Assembly (NCBI RefSeq): GCF_001983935.1
Contig: NZ_CP017641.1
Coordinates: 2,976,001-3,040,000 of the forward strand
DNA: 64,000 bases
Origin: Fuerstiella marisgermanici
GTDB lineage: Bacteria; Planctomycetota; Planctomycetia; Planctomycetales; Planctomycetaceae
Direction: 5' to 3'
In this document: piece by piece, positions 30,992 to 53,500 of the stretch
Numbering within the stretch: the stretch's first letter is position 1
Layout: the number at the start of each line of letters is the position of its first letter
Program-made: the position numbers and the translations under genes
Notes under the pieces: generated by a model
What the model saw: the letters and a program-made list of their open reading frames with translations, nothing else
Told to the model about the DNA's origin: nothing
Databases searched by the model: none

Positions 30992-33856
30992 ATGAATGTC
31001 GAAGACGCTGCTGCGTCGAAGAAATCCGAACCTCGGTTTGTTGTTGGAATTGATCTCGGCACAACAAACTCGGCCGTCTGCTACGTTGATACCAGCGCCA
31101 CAGAGACCAGTGATAACCACGACACATGGGACGTACGAACGCTCAAGGTGCCGCAATTGGTCGCACCTGGTCAGGTCGAACATCGAGACACGCTGCCATC
31201 GTTTCACTACCAACCGGCGGCGGGCGAATTCTCTGACGGCGAACTACAGCTTCCCTGGTCTAACGCATTCGCCGGACACTTTGTTGGGACCTTAGCTCGA
31301 GACCACGGGATTCACGTTCCGGGGCGAATGATCTCTTCGGCAAAGTCGTGGCTGTGTCATCCGGGCGTCGATCGCACAGCCGGAATTCTGCCATGGCAGG
31401 GCGGCGACGATGTCGACCGACTTTCGCCCGTGGAAGTCAGCAGCCGATTGCTGGCTCATGTGGTCGACGTATGGAATCATCAGTTCCCTGACGAACCGCT
31501 TGCTGATCAGACAGTCGTCCTGACGATCCCAGCGTCGTTTGACGAAGTCGCTCGCAACCTCACCATTCAGGCGTCGCAAAAGGCGGGGCTGCCGCGAGTC
31601 TTGCTGATTGAGGAACCTCAGGCCGCCTTCTACGCGTGGATCGATCGGCACCGAGGCGACTGGGAAGATCGAGTTCAACCCGGCCAGAAGATTTTGGTCT
31701 GCGATGTCGGCGGCGGCACGACGGACTTCACACTGATCCGAGTTAAATCCGGCGCGGACAACAAGGTGCTGTTTCACCGAGTTGCCGTGGGCGAACATCT
31801 GATTCTGGGCGGCGACAACCTCGACCTTGCCCTCGCCTACTTCATAGAAGGCCGTTTCCGCGAAGAAGGCGTTTCGCAACTCACACCGCGTCAGTGGAGT
31901 GTGCTTGTGCGAGTCGCCCGGCAGGTCAAGGAAGCATTGTTGTCGCCCGATGCCCCGAACCAGTTCACAGTCAGTCTGCCCGGATCGGGATCCAAACTGA
32001 TCGGCGGTGCGTTGCAGACTCAGGTCACGAAGCAACAGGTGACCGATGTTCTGCTGGAAGGCTTTTTGCCTCAAACGACCTTCACCGATGTGCCGCAGAG
32101 TAACCAAAGTGGTTTCCGCGAATTCGGTTTGCCATACGCCGCCGATTCGGCCATCACCCGGTACCTGGCCGAATTCCTGCGGACTCATGCTGAGACTGCT
32201 GCTGAGAACGAAATGCTGCGTGACGACGACCACGCAGCGCGGCCGGACATAGTTCTGTTCAACGGGGGGCTGTTCGAATCAGCGTTGCTGAAGCAGCGAA
32301 TGACCGAAGTGCTTTCGTCATGGTTTAGCGAGGGCGACCGTGAATGGGAGCCGCTGATTCTCAACTGCGAACGCCTGGATTTGGCGGTGGCTCAGGGAGC
32401 TGCCTGCTACGGCATGGTGTCGCGTGGAATCGGCGTACGGATTTCGGCCGGCTTGCCTCGAACGTATTACCTCGGCGTCGAAACCGAAGCCGGCATGAAC
32501 GCCGTCTGCCTTGTCCCGGCCGGCACAGAACCGGGCACCGACCTGGATCCGCCAGAACAGACCTTTCAACTGCAAACCGGCCGACCGGTTGAGTTCCCAG
32601 TGCTCTATTCGGGGACTCGCCTGACCGACGCGACGGGCACGGTTGTCGAATCCGAAAAGGAACAGCTCACCGCCCTGCCGCCGATCCGCACTGTGATCCG
32701 CAGCAGCGACAACAACGCAGGCGACACGGTGACGGTGCAGGTCAACGCACGGCTGACAGAAATCGGAACGCTTGACCTTTGGTGCGCGAGCACAACAACA
32801 GGCGAGCGCTGGAAGCTGCAGTTCGACGTGCGTTCCGCCGTTCGCACCGACGTCGCCGCTCACGAAGCCAGCGCCGCAGACGCGGAAGGCATCGTCGCCG
32901 CGGACACACTCACGCAGGTCGAAGCCATATTGCATTCGGTCTTCGGTAAAGACGGAACGGACAAGCCGGGCGGACTGGCCAAACGCATCGGGCGTGAGAT
33001 CAGCATGAGTCGTTCCGATTGGCCGACGTCGCTGCTGCGTGAAATGTGGCGGGTATTGATTGAACTGGCCGATGGTCGCCGCCGCAGTGCAGCTCACGAA
33101 TCCGCCTGGCTCAATCTACTCGGCTTCGCACTGCGGCCGGGCTTCGGCTACGCCATGGATGACTGGCGAATTGACACCACGTGGGACATTCTTCGAGGCA
33201 AGCTGATTCATGCCACACCCGAAGTCCGCAGCCAATGGTGGATCATGTGGCGACGCATCGCCGGAGGACTTTCCGGCGGCCAGCAAAACGCTACGGCATC
33301 GCAGCTTCTCAGTTCCATCCGCCAGACGGCTCAACAAATGAGTTCCGGTAAAGGCAAAGGTGGCCCGATCGCGTTGCACGAAAAAGACGCTGCCGAAATC
33401 TGGCGAGTCCTTGGCGCATTCGAACAGCTACCGCCGTCTGTCCGCCATGAACTGGGTGACATCGTGCTTCAGTTACTGCCTCGCCCTAAAATGCAGCCGA
33501 TGCGAGAAGCCTTAGTGTGGACGCTGGGCCGACTGGGTTCGCGAGTGCCATTCAACGGCAACGCTCAATCAACGGTCAACGCCGACACGGCGGCTCGTTG
33601 GTTACAGCAATTACTAAGCATGCAACTGGAGGACGTCCAGACGCTGCCACTGGCGATCATGCAACTGGCTCGCCGCACCGACGACCGCTTCACAGACATC
33701 CCGGACGACGTTCGCGAAGAAGCAGCTCGCTACCTGAAAGAAATGGGCGGCTACCACTCACTGATCAAGCTAATCCGCGAAGCTGGCACAACAGACGCAG
33801 AAACAAAGGGAGCCCTCTTCGGAGAAGCACTTCCCCTCGGCTTAACCATGACATAA
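30992..33856 (+). CDS. Hsp70-family (DnaK-like) protein with long C-terminal extension
   Basis: 954 residues, much longer than DnaK (about 640). The actin-like ATPase domain has phosphate-1 motif GIDLGTTNSAV (19-29) and phosphate-2 motif CDVGGGTTDFTLI (about 237-249); connecting sequence RVLLIEEPQAAFYAW matches the EPQAA motif. After a shortened substrate-binding-like beta region (about 500-630), the last 300 residues are mainly helical with Trp-rich segments (QWWIMWRRIAGG) resembling the DUF3731-type extension of HscC/YegD-related proteins. Its exact clients are unknown. Four bases separate it from the secreted protein gene upstream. The stop codon is followed after two bases by repeat family B. 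Confidence 0.85.
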   Translation: MNVEDAAASKKSEPRFVVGIDLGTTNSAVCYVDTSATETSDNHDTWDVRTLKVPQLVAPGQVEHRDTLPSFHYQPAAGEFSDGELQLPWSNAFAGHFVGTLARDHGIHVPGRMISSAKSWLCHPGVDRTAGILPWQGGDDVDRLSPVEVSSRLLAHVVDVWNHQFPDEPLADQTVVLTIPASFDEVARNLTIQASQKAGLPRVLLIEEPQAAFYAWIDRHRGDWEDRVQPGQKILVCDVGGGTTDFTLIRVKSGADNKVLFHRVAVGEHLILGGDNLDLALAYFIEGRFREEGVSQLTPRQWSVLVRVARQVKEALLSPDAPNQFTVSLPGSGSKLIGGALQTQVTKQQVTDVLLEGFLPQTTFTDVPQSNQSGFREFGLPYAADSAITRYLAEFLRTHAETAAENEMLRDDDHAARPDIVLFNGGLFESALLKQRMTEVLSSWFSEGDREWEPLILNCERLDLAVAQGAACYGMVSRGIGVRISAGLPRTYYLGVETEAGMNAVCLVPAGTEPGTDLDPPEQTFQLQTGRPVEFPVLYSGTRLTDATGTVVESEKEQLTALPPIRTVIRSSDNNAGDTVTVQVNARLTEIGTLDLWCASTTTGERWKLQFDVRSAVRTDVAAHEASAADAEGIVAADTLTQVEAILHSVFGKDGTDKPGGLAKRIGREISMSRSDWPTSLLREMWRVLIELADGRRRSAAHESAWLNLLGFALRPGFGYAMDDWRIDTTWDILRGKLIHATPEVRSQWWIMWRRIAGGLSGGQQNATASQLLSSIRQTAQQMSSGKGKGGPIALHEKDAAEIWRVLGAFEQLPPSVRHELGDIVLQLLPRPKMQPMREALVWTLGRLGSRVPFNGNAQSTVNADTAARWLQQLLSMQLEDVQTLPLAIMQLARRTDDRFTDIPDDVREEAARYLKEMGGYHSLIKLIREAGTTDAETKGALFGEALPLGLTMT

Positions 33857-33945
33857 TTGCCGGGCAGCCCCGGCGGGCGGTTGGCGTGGTGGGCGGTTGA
33901 GCTGGACGAAGGCTGAAGCGCCGGCGTTGCTCCCGATGGTCGCTG
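33857..33945 (+). repeat. Family B 3'-end repeat, copy 1
   Basis: Starts directly after the Hsp70-like stop TAA (33854-33856): two bases, then hairpin GCCGGG-CAGC-CCCGGC (33859-33874), then GGGCGGTTGGCGTGG, GGGCGGTTGAG, and the end GCCGGCGTTGCTCCCGAT and GGTCGCTG. The same order is found at 34237-34152 (minus) and 50070-50326 (plus). The stem here uses G-C where the other copies have T-A, keeping the pairing. Confidence 0.8.
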
Positions 33946-34151
33946 GGAGATGATCGGGCTTTCACGAGTCGACCAGGTATGGCAGATGAACGGAGGCCGA
34001 CAAACGCCCACGGAATTTGTTTTCTGCTAAGAAGTCTTTGGGTGAAGGAAATTCCTGCGGCCCTCTGCAGTTCAACTTCTTACGCTCGAATAGTCCGATC
34101 CAATTCCTCAACAGGAAACACTCAAACCACGAAATCGAGCCTCCCCGCCTC
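33946..34151. other. Gene-free spacer between two inverted family B copies
   Basis: About 206 bp lie between the plus-oriented copy at 33857-33945 and the minus-oriented copy at 34152-34237, between two convergent genes. Frames that cross it read only repeat-derived arginine/proline-rich peptides. No terminator, RNA gene or promoter was recognised. Confidence 0.5.
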
Positions 34152-34237
34152 CAGCGACCACCGGGAGCAACGCCGGCGCACCAGCCCTCCCACCATCACA
34201 AAGCCACCACGCCAACCGCCCGCCGGTGCATACCGGC
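34152..34237 (-). repeat. Family B 3'-end repeat, copy 2
   Basis: Minus-strand copy beginning with the last base of the TAG stop (34239-34237) of the ArsM-like gene: hairpin GCCGGT-ATGC-ACCGGC (34237-34222), then GGGCGGTTGGCGTGG and, at the end, GCCGGCGTTGCTCCCG and GTGGTCGCTGG. It is inverted relative to copy 1 but has the same orientation relative to the gene it follows. Confidence 0.8.
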
Positions 34238-35412
34238 TAACAGCAGTCAGTAGTGCCGCAGCAGTCTGTTCCGGGGAGGAGGTCCAGCTTTGGTTTGCCC
34301 TGTTTTGTGAATTTGGGGTCTCGGCGTTCGCTGCGGCGGCAATCAAAGTTCGCAGCCTGTTCAATTGGGATATCGTCGACCGGGACGATTGGTGTCATCT
34401 GGTCTGCGTAGGGGGCGGACGTGTAGAGTTTGAACGTCTTGTCGCAGACTGCCATACGTTCGCCACGAAACAGTTTGTGGCCATCGTCGTCTGTCACGGT
34501 CTTCCACGGTCCGTTATAAATGACGGCCTGGTGACGATCGAGACACGGGCCTTCTTTGCCCTTCCAGGCTCGCACGGTCAGGCTGCGAAATTCGATACCG
34601 TCGACCACGGCCCACGCTTCCTCCTGGCGATTGACAATTTCCAGACCGTAAAATCCGGCGGCTTCAAAGGCTTCCAGAAATCGGTCCTCGCGGAATGCAC
34701 CGCTGATGCAGCCGCTCCACAGTTCTGCGTTGTTTTGCAAATTGGTCGGCACATCTTCATCGCTGACAATGTCGCTGATGATCGCACGGCCGCCACGTTT
34801 GAGGACTCGGAACACTTCCGCAAACAGCTGGTATCGGTCTTCGTTGCGGACAAGGTTCAGCACGCAATTGGACACAACGGCGTCCATGCTGTCGCTGGCA
34901 ACCAACGGTGACTTTTCACGCAGTTCAGCGGCGGCTTCGTCGGCGGCCAGCCAGTCTGCCGCGGAACTGACAGGATGCTGCTGCAGATGCTGTTCGAACA
35001 ATTCCATGTTCAACTGCAGATCCTGAATGCGTCCCTTGCGAAAATCGGTATTGCGAAATCCGATTCTGGAAGCGACCTCATCCTGATACTGTCGAGCCAG
35101 CTTCAGCATTTGGTCGTTGATGTCCACGCCAACGACGTAACCATCGGGGCCTACCACTTGCGAAGCGATGTAACAAATCTTGCCGCCGCCGGAGCCCAGG
35201 TCCAGCACATGGTCGCCTGGTTTCAGGTACTGAGATGGATCGCCGCAACCGTAGTCGCGTTCGATAATTTCGTCCGGAATGACCTTCAGGTACTTCGCAT
35301 CGTAAGACACGGGACAGCACAAAGCGGGTTCCGCCGCTTCGGCCGCCGCGCCATAGCGATCTCGTACAGCGGCGTCGACGTTTAAAGAATCAGTCGGCTG
35401 AGTGGCTGACAT
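34237..35412 (-). CDS. ArsM-like SAM-dependent methyltransferase
   Basis: 391 residues. AdoMet-binding motif I VLDLGSGGGK follows the ArsM-type lead ERDYGCGDPSQYLKPGD. Motif III is VVSNCVLNLV, as in arsenite methyltransferases. An N-terminal AALCC-like pair (PALCCPVSYD) and a terminal cysteine-rich tail (DCCGTTDCC) add thiols that could bind As(III) or another soft metal; these are seen, the binding is inference. The family methylates arsenite to volatile or less toxic species in the cytoplasm. No arsR or ars transporter lies nearby. Its stop codon is the first base of a family B repeat. Confidence 0.75.
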   Translation of the reverse strand: MSATQPTDSLNVDAAVRDRYGAAAEAAEPALCCPVSYDAKYLKVIPDEIIERDYGCGDPSQYLKPGDHVLDLGSGGGKICYIASQVVGPDGYVVGVDINDQMLKLARQYQDEVASRIGFRNTDFRKGRIQDLQLNMELFEQHLQQHPVSSAADWLAADEAAAELREKSPLVASDSMDAVVSNCVLNLVRNEDRYQLFAEVFRVLKRGGRAIISDIVSDEDVPTNLQNNAELWSGCISGAFREDRFLEAFEAAGFYGLEIVNRQEEAWAVVDGIEFRSLTVRAWKGKEGPCLDRHQAVIYNGPWKTVTDDDGHKLFRGERMAVCDKTFKLYTSAPYADQMTPIVPVDDIPIEQAANFDCRRSERRDPKFTKQGKPKLDLLPGTDCCGTTDCC

Positions 35413-48178: not shown

Positions 48179-50068
48179 ATGGCACAACTTAGCATCAACA
48201 ACGTTACTTTCGCGTTCTCTCAGCCCGCATTGCTGAAGGACGCGACGCTGCACATCGAACCCGGCGAACGGGTGGGCCTGGTGGGCCGCAACGGAGCGGG
48301 CAAGTCGACTCTACTGAAGATCATTAACCGCGAATTGCAGCCGGACGACGGCAGTCTGGACATTTCCGCCGACATCGTCGTGGCCAAGCTGGCTCAGGAA
48401 GTCCCCGAAGTCGACGGCCAGACCGCCTTCGACGTCGCCGCCGGCGGATTTGCTGAACTGGCCGAAGCCGTCAGCATCTATCGCAGCCTGAATGAAGCCA
48501 TGCAGGCTGGCCGGGAACTCACCGCCGCCGAACAGACGTCCTACGACAACGCCAGCCACGCTCTGGCAGACGCGGAATTGTGGGACGCGGGCGATCGTCT
48601 GGAAGGACTTCTGGCAGAAATGCAACTGCCCTGCGACGTGCAGTTCAACGACCTTTCGGCCGGAATGAAACGACGCGTCCTTCTGGCTCAGGCCATGATC
48701 CGTCGCCCGGACATTCTGTTGCTGGACGAACCGACCAACCATCTGGACATCGAATCCATCGTCTGGCTGCAGTCGTACCTGAAACGCTTCACAGGGACGC
48801 TGGTCTTTATTACTCACGATCGAGTCTTCCTGCAGGACATCGCCAACCGCATTGTCGAAATTGACCGCGGCCGGCTGTTCGACTGGACCTGTGACTACGC
48901 CACATTCCTCAAACGCCGCGACGACATGCTCGCCGCCGAAGAGGTCGCTCAGGCACACTTCGATCGTAAGCTGGCAGAAGAAGAAAAATGGATTCGTCAG
49001 GGCATCAAAGCGCGAAGAACTCGTAACGAAGGCCGTGTCCGAGCCCTCAAAAAGATGCGTCAGGAACGCAGCGAACGACGCAGCAAGACGGGCACCGCCA
49101 AGCTACATCTGCAGGAAGCCGACCGATCGGGACGACTGGTCGCCGCCGTCAAAAACGTCACTCATGGCTTCGACGGCCCGCCGCTGATCACAGACTTCAC
49201 AGCTACCGTTTACCGAGGCGATCGGATCGGCTTGATCGGTCCCAACGGAATCGGCAAGTCAACGCTGCTGAAGATCCTTCTGGGTGAACTCACGCCAAAC
49301 TCCGGCACCGTACGACTCGGCACCAATCTTTCTGTCGCTTACTTCGACCAGTTGCGGGGCCAGTTAGATCCGTCCAAGTCCGCTCGCGAAAACGTCAGCG
49401 AAGGCACCGACGAACTTTTGATTCATGGCAAGAAGCGACATGTGATGGGCTATCTGCAGGACTTCCTGTTCGCGCCGGATCGAGCTCACACGCGAGTCGA
49501 ATACTTAAGTGGCGGTGAACGAAACCGTTTGCTGCTGGCCAAGCTGCTGGCCAAACCCGCCAATGTCCTCGTCCTGGACGAACCCACCAACGACCTCGAC
49601 GCAGAAACACTGGAACTACTGGAAGAAACACTGCCTCAGTTTGAAGGCACGATCCTATTGGTCAGCCACGACCGAGCGTTCCTGAATAACGTCGTCACCA
49701 GCACGATCGCCTTCGAAGGTGACGGAGTCGTCCGCGAATACGACGGCGGCTACGACGATTGGTTCCGTCAAAAAGAAGAAGGAGCTGCGGCGGCATCAAA
49801 TCTGTTCACTGCACCCACAAAGACAGCACCATCGCCCGCTCCCGCTGCCAAAGCTAAAAAACTTAGCTACAAAGATCAGCGCGAGTTGGACGAGCTACCG
49901 AATCGCATTGACGAGTTAGAAACCTTGCAGGCCGAGTTACAGAATCAAATGGCGCAACCAGACTTCTTCAAACAGGACGGCGCCGAGATCGCTCAAGCCC
50001 AGGCCGACCTGCAAAAAATGGCCGACGAACTCGCCCACTGCTACCAACGCTGGGAAGAACTCGCCTAA
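48179..50068 (+). CDS. ABC-F family ATPase, Uup-like
   Basis: 629 residues, two nucleotide-binding domains and no membrane part. NBD1: Walker A GRNGAGKST (36-44), signature LSAGMKRRVLLAQAM, Walker B ILLLDEPTNHLD. NBD2: Walker A GPNGIGKST (about 354-362), signature LSGGERNRLLLAKLL, Walker B LVLDEPTNDLD. The linker carries Arg/Lys-rich helices (EKWIRQGIKARRTRNEGRVR). A C-terminal coiled coil (about 560-629, LDELPNRIDELETLQAEL) is typical of Uup. ABC-F proteins act on the ribosome. The stop is followed after one base by three family B repeats. Confidence 0.92.
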   Translation: MAQLSINNVTFAFSQPALLKDATLHIEPGERVGLVGRNGAGKSTLLKIINRELQPDDGSLDISADIVVAKLAQEVPEVDGQTAFDVAAGGFAELAEAVSIYRSLNEAMQAGRELTAAEQTSYDNASHALADAELWDAGDRLEGLLAEMQLPCDVQFNDLSAGMKRRVLLAQAMIRRPDILLLDEPTNHLDIESIVWLQSYLKRFTGTLVFITHDRVFLQDIANRIVEIDRGRLFDWTCDYATFLKRRDDMLAAEEVAQAHFDRKLAEEEKWIRQGIKARRTRNEGRVRALKKMRQERSERRSKTGTAKLHLQEADRSGRLVAAVKNVTHGFDGPPLITDFTATVYRGDRIGLIGPNGIGKSTLLKILLGELTPNSGTVRLGTNLSVAYFDQLRGQLDPSKSARENVSEGTDELLIHGKKRHVMGYLQDFLFAPDRAHTRVEYLSGGERNRLLLAKLLAKPANVLVLDEPTNDLDAETLELLEETLPQFEGTILLVSHDRAFLNNVVTSTIAFEGDGVVREYDGGYDDWFRQKEEGAAAASNLFTAPTKTAPSPAPAAKAKKLSYKDQRELDELPNRIDELETLQAELQNQMAQPDFFKQDGAEIAQAQADLQKMADELAHCYQRWEELA

Positions 50069-50326
50069 TGCCGGTACGCACCGGCGGGCGGTTGGCGTGG
50101 CGGGCGGTTGAGCAGGATGAACACGCAATCGCCGGCGTTGCTCCCGATGGTCGCCTTCGGGCCGGTGTGCATTGGCGTGGCGAACGCGTGAGCAGGATGA
50201 TGGCGGAAGCGCCGGCATGGCTCCCGATCGTCGCATTCGGGCCGGTACGCACCGGCGGGCGGTTGGCGTGGTAAGCGTGTGAGCAGGATAAACACGCAAT
50301 CGCCGGCGTTGCTCCCGATGGTCGCT
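50069..50326 (+). repeat. Family B 3'-end repeat, three tandem units
   Basis: Unit 1 starts one base after the ABC-F stop: hairpin GCCGGT-ACGC-ACCGGC (50070-50085). Unit 2 (50161-50240) has GCCGGT-GTGC-ATTGGC, still pairable through G-U pairs, and lacks an internal GGGCGGTTG segment. Unit 3 (50241-50326) repeats unit 1 (GCCGGTACGCACCGGC) and ends GCTCCCGATGGTCGCTG. Units are about 80-90 bp apart with no unique spacers. 50327-50570 beyond it shows no gene or structure I can support. Confidence 0.8.
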
Positions 50327-50570
50327 GAGGTGGGTGTGACAGTCATCGCCGCTGCTATGGGACAATGCGAACCGGCGCTCGTTGCTATGCACGCCATGAG
50401 CTGGGGCGATTCTTAATCGGCGCAGTCCGCGCGCACTGCTTGCGACGCGAGAGGTGCGTTTTCAAGTCCTACTTTACTTCGGGTCGGTTCGCATTATGCT
50501 GAACAGGTCACCCTGCCCCTGCGGGTCGTGATTAAACACACACTATAGACCTTGAGATTGAGCGTGACGT

Positions 50571-53500
50571 ATGGCGGACGCGAACACAAACGGGGACTCA
50601 GTCAAGGAGGGAACGGCGGATGACGAACTGCAGGTTCGTTTCGATAAGGTGCTTCGGAAAGAACGCGAAGCGATTCGGCGGCGGCGTGAATCGTTTCTGC
50701 CGCCGGAAGACGGGCTGCCACAAAACCTGACGGGACTCGTGTTTTCCGGCGGTGGCATTCGTAGCGCAACGTTCAATCTGGGAATTCTGCAAGCGCTGGC
50801 CGCATTCGATTCGCAACATGAGGCACCAGACAAGGATGCGGACGATGCATCAAACGCCGTTGATCGTCCGGCGACGACCGCGCCTGATTCCAACGACGAT
50901 AAACAGCCCGGTCACCGCGAGACCGGTATTCTGCAGGCGTTCGACTACCTGTCGACTGTTTCCGGCGGTGGCTACATTGGAAGCTGGTTGTCGTCGTGGA
51001 TCTACCACGAATCCGTCTGTACGGAACAGAAGTCCGACAAGAACAAGCCGGGTTCAACTAAGCCGCCATGTCTGTCGGCGTTGGTGAGTGTTCAACGCAA
51101 GCTCGCTCGTTCTGTGACTCGCAACCGTCGAGCGGATTCGGGCAATCAGATTGAACCGCAACAGGTGGCTCACCTGCGACAGTTCAGCAACTACCTGTCG
51201 CCTCAAGTGGGTCTGTTTTCATGCGATACATGGACACTGCTGTCGATCTATCTCCGCAATTTTCTGCTGAACCTGTTGCCGCTGGTGTTGCTCGCGTTTT
51301 CAGGACTCATCGGCGTACTGCTGATGGTCAAGATATTCGGCGCTTCCTTTAGCGAAAAAGTCGACTTTTGGGCGACGCCCTCACTTTTTCCGGGCATGAC
51401 GCTGGCCCGTGTGTACGCGGTGCTTCTGACAATGCTGGGCTGGCTGACTTTCGCGCGCTGCCTTGCTGCCGTGAAACGAGCTCCCCGATCGTGGAGTACA
51501 TTTTCGCCTGCGTTCTGGAAACTACTCTGGGTAATTCGTAACCCTGTTCGGGCAGCGAAAGGTGAAGAGCCGTCGGACGAACCGAAATTGGGCGACACGG
51601 CTTACACAATTCGAAGCATGACAGCGACAGTTGTCTGTTGTTCACTAACAGCCGTCTGCGCCGTTCCGTTCCTGGCGATGCACGATCGGCTGGAAAGGTT
51701 TGGAAGATGGATCTGCAGCGTATCTGGCCTGCAGACCTGGGCGGACGGGGGTACTGATGGGATTCTGAAATCTGTGGGAGAATTCGCCACCAGGGAACCG
51801 GCACTGATCGCATTGATGTCGTACGCGGCAATGCTGCATGCGGGGCCGGCTCTGTTTACCTTTTTTCACAAGGGACCAGACCCGAAGAAATCGTGGAGCC
51901 TCGGCCAGCGAATATGGAGTACCGGGGCGTCAGTCGCGTTCGGCACGATTTCCGGAGCTGTGGGTGGGCTTGTACTGTGGTTGTGCGTTGTCAGCCCCGA
52001 CTGGAACGCGGCGGAAGAACCGGATCTCTACGTTGTCCTTGGCCCTCCGATCGTTTTGATGACGTTCTTTCTGGGCGTTGTTTGTGAGGTTGGATTTTCT
52101 TCGCGCAGTTCGTCCGTGCACGAACGTGAATGGTGGGCTCGCTTTGGCAGTTGGATGCTGATCATTGGATGCACCTGGCTGTTCGTTACGAGCGTCGCCG
52201 CGTATTCCGGCGCCGTGATCGACTGGCTGACTCCCAAGCTGCACGCAGCGGTGGCAACAGGAGCCATCAGTCTTTCGGCGGTGGGAGCGTGGCTGGGACA
52301 GCGATCCAACACCAGGAACAGTGGCACAGGACCGGTTAGCAATTTGGTTGTCCGGCTTGCTCCGGGGCTGTTTGTGGTCGGGCTGGTGATGTGCCTGTCA
52401 TGGGTCGTCCGAACGAATGTATTGCAGGTCGCCAGTGAAAAGGAAGTACCGCTGCAGTACACGGAGCCGGTTCCCAAGTATGCACCGCGCAGCACAAAGA
52501 CGACTCTCAGCATAGCGAAAGACGGTTCTGCGTCGTCTGTCCGAAGCGCTGAAACAACGGAAGCAACCAGTCGTTATCCGCGCGTCTATCGGTTGGGCGT
52601 AGAACGGATTCGTCACGCGATTCAACACGCTTACTCCAGCACGTTGTGGCTGTGCTTGATCGTGCCGGCGGCCGTGGCGTTGGTGCTCTCCACGCGATTC
52701 GACATTAATCAACATTCCCTCAATCGCGGCTACGCGAATCGACTGATCCGCTGCTATCTGGGGGCGACCAACCCCAACCGACGCCCTCAGGCAACCACGG
52801 GCTTCGATCCGGAAGACGACTTTCCGGTGGCGTCACTGTCCCCACTTCCGCCGGGAGTCCGAATTGAACCTGAAGAACCTGACCTGCTGGAACGTCTTTA
52901 CCGAGGGCTCGTGATCGGCCTGCCGCTTGCCTACAACGTCGCGACAGAAAACATCACACAGAAGCCAACGGAACAGGACTCAGCAGACGACAAGCCGCCT
53001 CGTTTCTACGACGGGCCTTTGCATCTGATTAACACCGCACTGAATGTGTTTTCCAGCCACGACTTAAGTCGTCAGGAACGGCGTGCAGAATCGTTTGTGA
53101 TTTCTCCATTGTACACCGGCTACGTACTGGCTGGGGAAACACAACAAACGCCGTCGGCTCCACAAAAGAGCGACACTCTTCCCGAGCAGACGGCCGAAAC
53201 ATTTGAAGAACCGCCGTTGGAATATTTCGTTCCGACGGCGGGTTACGCAGACGATATCAAACTTGGTTCGGCGTTCGCCATTTCAGGAGCGGCCGCCAGT
53301 CCAAACATGGGATATCACACCATGCCATCGCTGGCGGCGCTGATGACCTTGTTCAACGTTCGAACAGGTTGGTGGCTGCCGAACACCAATCAAACAGACC
53401 GAGTTGCTTTGCACAGTTCCGGTCCGTGGTACGGATTACGATACGTGGCACGCGAACTCTTCAGCCGTACCACGCGACGTTCCAAATACATCTACACCAG

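Follow-up and report, generated by a model that had tools for sequence, protein, structure and literature searches.

In Fuerstiella marisgermanici, a short repeat with a hairpin at one end often lies directly against the stop codon of an intact gene. Counting only copies that are first of their run (head-most copies, 104 of the 150 listed), 45 place their head at 0 to +9 nucleotides of a same-strand stop, against 1.7 expected under a uniform intergenic null (p about 7 × 10−52; roughly 27-fold). The stop-adjacent hairpin repeat is confirmed, and is stronger than the original prediction stated; the interpretation offered with that prediction is partly supported. Judged on sequence, the family is probably a REP-like non-autonomous mobile element that inserts head first with an exact preference for stop codons.

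The window (64,000 nucleotides, bases 2,976,001–3,040,000 of a single-contig genome of 8,920,478 bases, labelled G000) contains five element copies of about 90 nt each. These, and the genes concerned, are as follows.

30992–33856, plus strand: Hsp70-like / DNA-K related gene (PF12531, PF00012)
33859–33943, plus strand: element copy 1; head hairpin 33859–33874, GCCGGG/CCCGGC; starts +2 nt past the Hsp70-like stop
34154–34237, minus strand: element copy 2; head hairpin 34237–34222; starts on the final base of the ArsM-like TAG stop (−1 register)
34237–35412, minus strand: ArsM-like methyltransferase gene (Pfam methyltransferase domain; 'ArsM' is the label of the original prediction); stop codon 34239–34237
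48179–50068, plus strand: ABC-F type ATPase gene (two ABC domains in Pfam; 'ABC-F' is likewise the earlier label)
50070–50154, plus strand: element copy 3; head 50070–50085; starts +1 nt past the ABC-F stop; scores highest of all model matches in the genome
50161–50234, plus strand: element copy 4, a degenerate tandem unit; head GCCGGT/ATTGGC, with two G-T pairs
50241–50325, plus strand: element copy 5, a tandem unit in the orientation of its neighbours, copies 3 and 4

All three junctions first described at 0–2 bases after a stop are real, with the range corrected to −1 to +2 by the ArsM-like copy at −1. The hairpin census likewise needs one amendment: GCCGGG/CCCGGC does occur in one copy and GCCGGT/ATTGGC, with its two G-T pairs, in the degenerate unit, but GCCGGT/ACCGGC is found in three copies where two had been counted.

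A covariance model built from 27 copies and run on the whole genome gave at least 154 matches at E ≤ 10 and at least 152 at E ≤ 0.01, totals that are lower bounds because 150 of 6749 first-look candidates were scored. The 150 matches listed form 99 clusters (at least 99 genome-wide). All 150 were taken with their flanks, together with six control stretches, and genes were called with our own hexamer-based caller, gene ends being checked on a sample. A 6-bp hairpin (the head) gives the element its sharp 5′ end, and the tail is conserved. Where neighbours lie less than 300 bases apart, 46 pairs among the matches listed are same-strand and 4 are inverted, all plus-minus. One locus (L140, G000:C1:7921943-7922559) has seven tandem copies behind a single gene, with a period of 89 bases. 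A dense group at about 2.60–2.64 Mb of G000:C1 (L068–L070) puts 7 of the 99 clusters into 40 kb, where the first 2 Mb hold 6, and sits among core genes, for example that for glutamine synthetase.

A same-strand gene lies upstream of 79 of the 104 head-most copies, and in 58 the head falls at −1 to +9 nt of a same-strand stop (40 at −1 to +2), where chance would give about 2. The individual distances are −1 (13 copies), 0 (19), +1 (6), +2 (2), +4 (8), +5 (4), +6 (3) and +7 to +9 (3). Eleven of the 18 spacers at +4 to +9 contain CCG, as a partial head would give, so the true register of these copies may often be 0 or −1. An abundance of copies away from stops had been named as grounds for refuting the prediction, and this is partly the case: 46 of 104 lie outside −1 to +9 of a called stop (10 at −42, 36 elsewhere), but the 0 to +9 class stands about 27-fold above expectation. 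The −42 register is itself exact and places the head inside the last codons of a gene, which then reads in frame into the element and ends at the element TGA (positions 40–42). For L091, the one such gene examined, four full-length orthologues extend about 7 to 13 codons further, and the insertion thus lies within a variable tail of the protein. Other gene edges yield nothing comparable: none of the 104 has its tail at an opposite-strand stop or a same-strand start, or its head at an opposite-strand start. Downstream, distances to opposite-strand stops are broad (12 to 1674 nt), and one copy lies inside a called gene. The share of copies near stops is independent of model score. Readthrough into the element was rejected, as the frame differs among copies (−1, 0, +1, +2), which leaves no conserved extension.

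Supply of the stop by the element is ruled out for the genes tested, whose orthologues end at the same residue. We compared 19 orthologues of the three window genes, all from genomes of the genus (mostly 70–82% protein identity, with four Hsp70-like sequences at 53–55%). The seven Hsp70-like and six ABC-F orthologues all end within a residue or two, the six ArsM-like ones all end with the same CC-stop, and none has a copy at that stop. At such distances an 'empty site' means that the element is absent at the stop, not that a pre-insertion allele is proven; by eye, the orthologous 3′ flanks are too diverged for alignment or for the reading of a target-site duplication. Two weak model matches in the orthologue loci both belong to one relative (G004) and both lie away from the stop concerned, one about 1.3 kb past the ABC-F stop and the other about 360 nt past the ArsM stop, on the other strand. 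An NCBIfam scan of 20 near-stop genes matched 15 at the thresholds used and left 5 without a match; for 13 of the 15, the match runs to within 8 positions of the protein end and 7 of the model end, and the genes with native ends include dapA, dapB, glnA, pyrH, eno and xylA. The two exceptions are an LptF-like gene, matched over its first half only, and a phosphofructokinase-like gene that ends 37 model positions early. Presence at native stops, with absence from the same stops of orthologues, favours the 'targeted element' among the roles originally suggested, and the pattern is repeated in a sister species (G003) with a diverged family.

The choice of stop codon is skewed. At the 58 near-stop copies the stop is TAG in 38, TAA in 17 and TGA in 3, compared with 30, 35 and 41 in 106 control genes (p about 7 × 10−7; about 1 × 10−4 without the −1 class). 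TAG and TAA are the stops read by release factor 1. The motif alone was rejected as the target: in the control stretch TAG/TAA occurs 65 times at stops and 696 times elsewhere in intergenic sequence, making non-stop sites about 11-fold commoner, yet it forms the junction of 55 near-stop copies and of 6 others, some of which may be stops of genes missed by the caller. Since those 6 are the only ones among the 46 copies away from stops with TAA or TAG at the junction, no single simple target rule fits all copies. A tentative reading, for which we see a rather small chance, is that insertion is coupled to translation termination or to a sequence state at gene ends; it would take in the TAG/TAA stops, the sense orientation, the position behind a C-rich, G-poor stretch, a hairpin with a loop–flank pseudoknot and a search that identified no transposase (all treated below). 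Bolder still would be the form in which the element also imposes the surrounding strand asymmetry.

A DNA-similarity search matched 3 of 39 genomes including its own, that is, 2 of 38 relatives, both of the genus. Model matches at E ≤ 0.01 in the other seven genus genomes number 45, 9, 5, 5, 4, 2 and 0, of which the small numbers may include chance. The G003 family has a similar head, another tail and similar placement: from 55 of its 65 matches at E ≤ 0.1 (the rest lie outside the stretches taken) we obtained 32 head-most copies, 24 with a same-strand gene upstream and 16 of those 24 at −1 to +9. Its near-stop stops, recounted with a head finder, are TAG 15, TAA 2 and TGA 1, versus 18, 13 and 16 in other genes of those stretches. 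The 20 loci taken from G001, G004 and G005 have 13 strict heads, of which 3 are at TA-GCCGG stops (two from G001 and one from G004). When named genomes were scanned for the pattern, 11 of the 83 matches listed had a paired head; 7 are in G003 or G004 and element-like, and the remaining 4 are in other phyla and chance-like.

Two variants of the design were also seen. A sibling family has a like head and another middle, the head being followed by GGAGCTGACGCTCC or similar and then by TTCCCGTTGGTCAC or similar; its sites are L070 (~2620698), L068 (~2605197), L059 (~56456, own genome) and L102, three of them at or shortly past stop codons. In G004, a head variant AAGGGC...GCCCTT is followed by GACC plus ATGGCGTGG or GTGGCGTGG and by a recognisable tail (L154:99-178 and L361:1060-1139), one copy lying one base past a TAA and the other overlapping the end of a called gene.

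No candidate gene for a mobilising enzyme was found. A RAYT-like transposase had been proposed as partner, and the genome holds nine Y1 transposase genes, but none of the nine loci carries a significant copy within about 1.5 kb (best E 0.1). One of 21 Y1 loci in relatives has a copy, about 1.4 kb away, and G003, which has the second-richest set of copies and is a draft metagenome assembly that may lack mobile genes, gave no Y1 match. RAYT was rejected as mover on these two grounds, Y1 genes not flanked by copies and G003 without a Y1 match. Reverse transcriptases, for which RVT_1 matches occur in all eight genus genomes, were also rejected: the 8 of 11 own loci searched show no copy, one G003 locus gave a marginal match (E 0.09), and the retron-like enzyme was not found in copy-bearing G004. 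This small retron-like reverse transcriptase is present in 6 of 8 genus genomes (L417, G000:C1:5012500-5017500, with homologues in G001, G002, G003, G005 and G007); its frame spans about 330–410 codons, with an N-terminus that looks hydrophobic in most and is perhaps a membrane anchor. Separately, two different reverse transcriptase genes stand convergently at three places, with match starts 1,621 bases apart and identical match scores (G000:C1 1861419/1863040, 2043529/2045150 and 4901994/4903615), and at three other places the second type stands without its partner.

These searches bear on whether the family is a true REP system, a GTAG-type REP moved by RAYT in which the apparent stop TAG is the REP tag. 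We regard this as unlikely, even for a hairpin-headed, high-copy and mostly intergenic family whose genome encodes nine Y1 transposases. The part of PMC3733652 drawn on here reports that GTAG REP termini often give a TAG stop to flanking ORFs, in hosts that include Planctomycetes, and the corresponding part of PMC6006769 describes a TnpA-REP-like class 3, mainly from Planctomycetes, Acidobacteria and Proteobacteria, with atypical flanking structures. In the present family, however, orthologues show the stops to be native, TAA serves at 17 of 58, and the 46 non-stop copies have no conserved upstream base that could be the tag (an unpaired tetranucleotide at the hairpin foot). The single Y1 locus with a copy among those of relatives is set against none of nine in the genome itself and the lack of any Y1 match in the G003 draft. 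Neighbouring copies, 46 same-strand to 4 inverted, also contrast with REPINs, for which the cited part of PMC3116915 gives 93% inverted doublets in one Pseudomonas.

Ahead of the head lies a C-rich, G-poor stretch of about 100 nt, in coding and non-coding sequence (in the window at about 33700–33856 and 49980–50068). Over the last 15 codons of the 58 near-stop genes, wobble positions are C at 0.57–0.62 and G at 0.11–0.13, versus 0.24–0.34 and 0.30–0.36 in two control sets; the bias fades by about 60–80 codons (C 0.38 and G 0.27 versus 0.33 and 0.31, still slightly off). GC skew around 76 isolated copies is −0.20 over the 63 bases that lead up to the head, +0.12 past the tail and near zero further out; the tail-side value could partly reflect decayed element sequence. 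In G003, the last ten wobble positions of 18 near genes have C 0.75, G 0.06 and T 0.01 against 0.39, 0.30 and 0.18, a difference that is partly gene-wide. Over the last 30 codons, wobble G is lower in the G000 version of all three window genes than in any of their orthologues (small numbers); this does not hold for L091, a −42 gene in which the element itself makes up the final 14 codons. C-rich ends also exist without a copy, 19 of 305 controls reaching ≥0.4 on a scale where 43 of 58 near genes do so.

Rut sites are C-rich and G-poor, and a hairpin right behind a stop codon could halt exonucleases. Stretch and hairpin could together form a selected 3′ element, acting in Rho-type termination or 3′-end protection, and the wobble composition of the near-stop genes fits such a site; the cited part of PMC12306157 adds that, per work cited there, REPs in 3′ regions of E. 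coli prolong half-life and near stops may stall ribosomes. We think this improbable as the explanation of the family, because the same flank is found away from gene ends (mean skew −0.20 over 25 copies whose upstream gene is on the opposite strand, negative in 22 of them), orthologues do without the element, the head has as many G-U as A-C mispairs, and the avoidance of TGA is left unexplained. No terminator-like site was detected in 33700–34400 or 49950–50600, and TTTT within 25 nt past the head occurs in none of 84 copies. From sequence, the terminator or mRNA-stabiliser role suggested originally is a possible one.

The flank has three possible accounts. The one towards which we lean, short of proof, is that insertion selects C-rich targets free of structure; the others are a rut-like site that works together with the hairpin and strand-biased change brought about by the element. 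Bearing on element-driven mutation as sole cause are a tail-side bias that is weak, none at gene starts and no growth with divergence. Convergent genes facing the tail are weakly biased within 60 nt (n = 11, p = 0.03), at 60–120 nt (n = 11, p = 0.2) and at 120–200 nt (n = 9, p = 0.03), without a distance trend, and gene starts show none (n = 9 and 10). Among near genes the flank bias does not follow copy divergence (rho 0.14, p 0.29); in the full head-most set, a better score goes with a slightly stronger bias (rho −0.20, p 0.04).

Pairing in the head is conserved. In 104 distinct aligned copies, 98.6% of stem cells are paired and 5 of 6 pairs show double changes, which upholds the compensatory change first noticed at a single pair. 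When every pair of alignment columns is compared, the four that rank highest are three pairs of the head stem and the combination of loop position 10 with flank position 19. Pair 10–19 is CG in 83 copies, GC in 15, TA in 2, GT in 1 and unpaired in 3; its neighbour 9–20 is nearly invariant (GC in 102 of 104). The two pairs would form a small pseudoknot at the head, although a tertiary or intermolecular contact is possible instead, given that spanning a 6-bp stem with a linker of 2 nt may be a tight fit. Selection on structure, as originally argued, is backed by the stem covariation and by this independent loop-to-flank pair. In 81 distinct heads from loci of G001, G003, G004 and G005, pair 10–19 is CG in 71, TA in 5 and unpaired as CA in 4 and AC in 1, and pair 5–12, nearly invariant in G000, is CG in 13, GC in 63, AT in 3 and otherwise in 2; as the head finder accepted only heads with a C at position 20 and five of the six stem positions paired, only 10–19 of these pairs is free of selection bias.

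Head mispairs comprise 10 G-U and 10 A-C, an equality that gives no sign of selection on sense RNA in particular. Single-sequence folding energy was no better than that of shuffles (six copies folded), and a long-range second stem proposed by RNAalifold in the tail (alignment columns 17–21/73–77 and 23–28/64–69) hardly varies and has no compensatory change. Rfam covariance models gave no match at gathering over the whole window and none at E ≤ 1 in 33800–34300. An HDV-like ribozyme or hammerhead was set aside by eye. The arm pairing could also be functionless and kept by template switching between the arms during replication, in line with perfect arms, several arm sequences within one genome and symmetrical mispair types; we find this doubtful, as pair 10–19 covaries too, both here and in the 81 heads of relatives, and seems too short for switching.

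Random intergenic insertion, with stop adjacency as what selection leaves because in-gene insertions are harmful and the stop edge is the first safe place, is highly improbable, being contradicted by the distance distribution (about 1.7 of 104 predicted at 0 to +9, 45 observed), the broad downstream distances to opposite-strand stops, a tail side without such an edge and equal model scores in near and other copies.

In the reading we prefer, a REP-like mobile element with a stop-codon preference, the copies would be insertions. The mobilising enzyme would recognise the structured head, probably as single-stranded DNA or RNA, and insertion would join the head to the bases of the stop codon. Such insertions would be tolerated because the protein is unchanged; one arriving a few codons early would see the protein ended by the in-frame TGA at element positions 40–42. 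To our knowledge, most bacterial mobile elements recognise DNA sequence, and how a stop codon is read by an element would be a new, testable question. A family that lands on core-gene stops and leaves the protein unaltered would follow an elegant safe-harbour strategy. Many genes (pyrH, eno, dapA, dapB and glnA among those sampled) are thereby given a similar structured 3′ end, which could jointly affect mRNA fate.

REP repeats are the nearest known kind, but the element is not classed among them, since tag, flanked transposase and inverted pairing all fail. With GTAG REPs it shares a palindromic hairpin head, small size, high copy number and a location mostly downstream of genes; it differs in lacking a tag outside stops, in its ~90 nt, long conserved tail and loop–flank pair, in having tandem neighbours, in that no flanked transposase gene was found and in using native TAA as well. 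REPINs, too, are dispersed repeats of roughly 100 nt and presumably mobile, whereas the element occurs singly or head-to-tail, with inversion in 4 of 50 adjacent pairs. MITEs are likewise short, non-autonomous and dispersed; the element has a hairpin at one end only and no terminal inverted repeats (in 84 copies, the mean best terminal 12-mer match is 5.98 of 12 versus 6.29 when shuffled, and none reaches 10). A general closeness of REPs to stops is not new, on the findings in the cited parts of PMC3733652 and PMC12306157. The matches listed from the open-access literature include, beyond the cited REP papers, none on this element family or on equally exact stop-codon targeting. Neither those matches nor the cited parts of the two papers contain a register this exact, placement in one orientation only, native stops, TGA avoidance, the loop–flank pair or the C-rich flank. 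In E. coli, where the hairpin is likewise close to the stop codon, 446 of 4072 REPs lie ≤15 nt from stops (an older count cited there is 260 of 496; PMC12306157, in part); the present element instead has 58 of 104 head-most copies within −1 to +9, in a single orientation.
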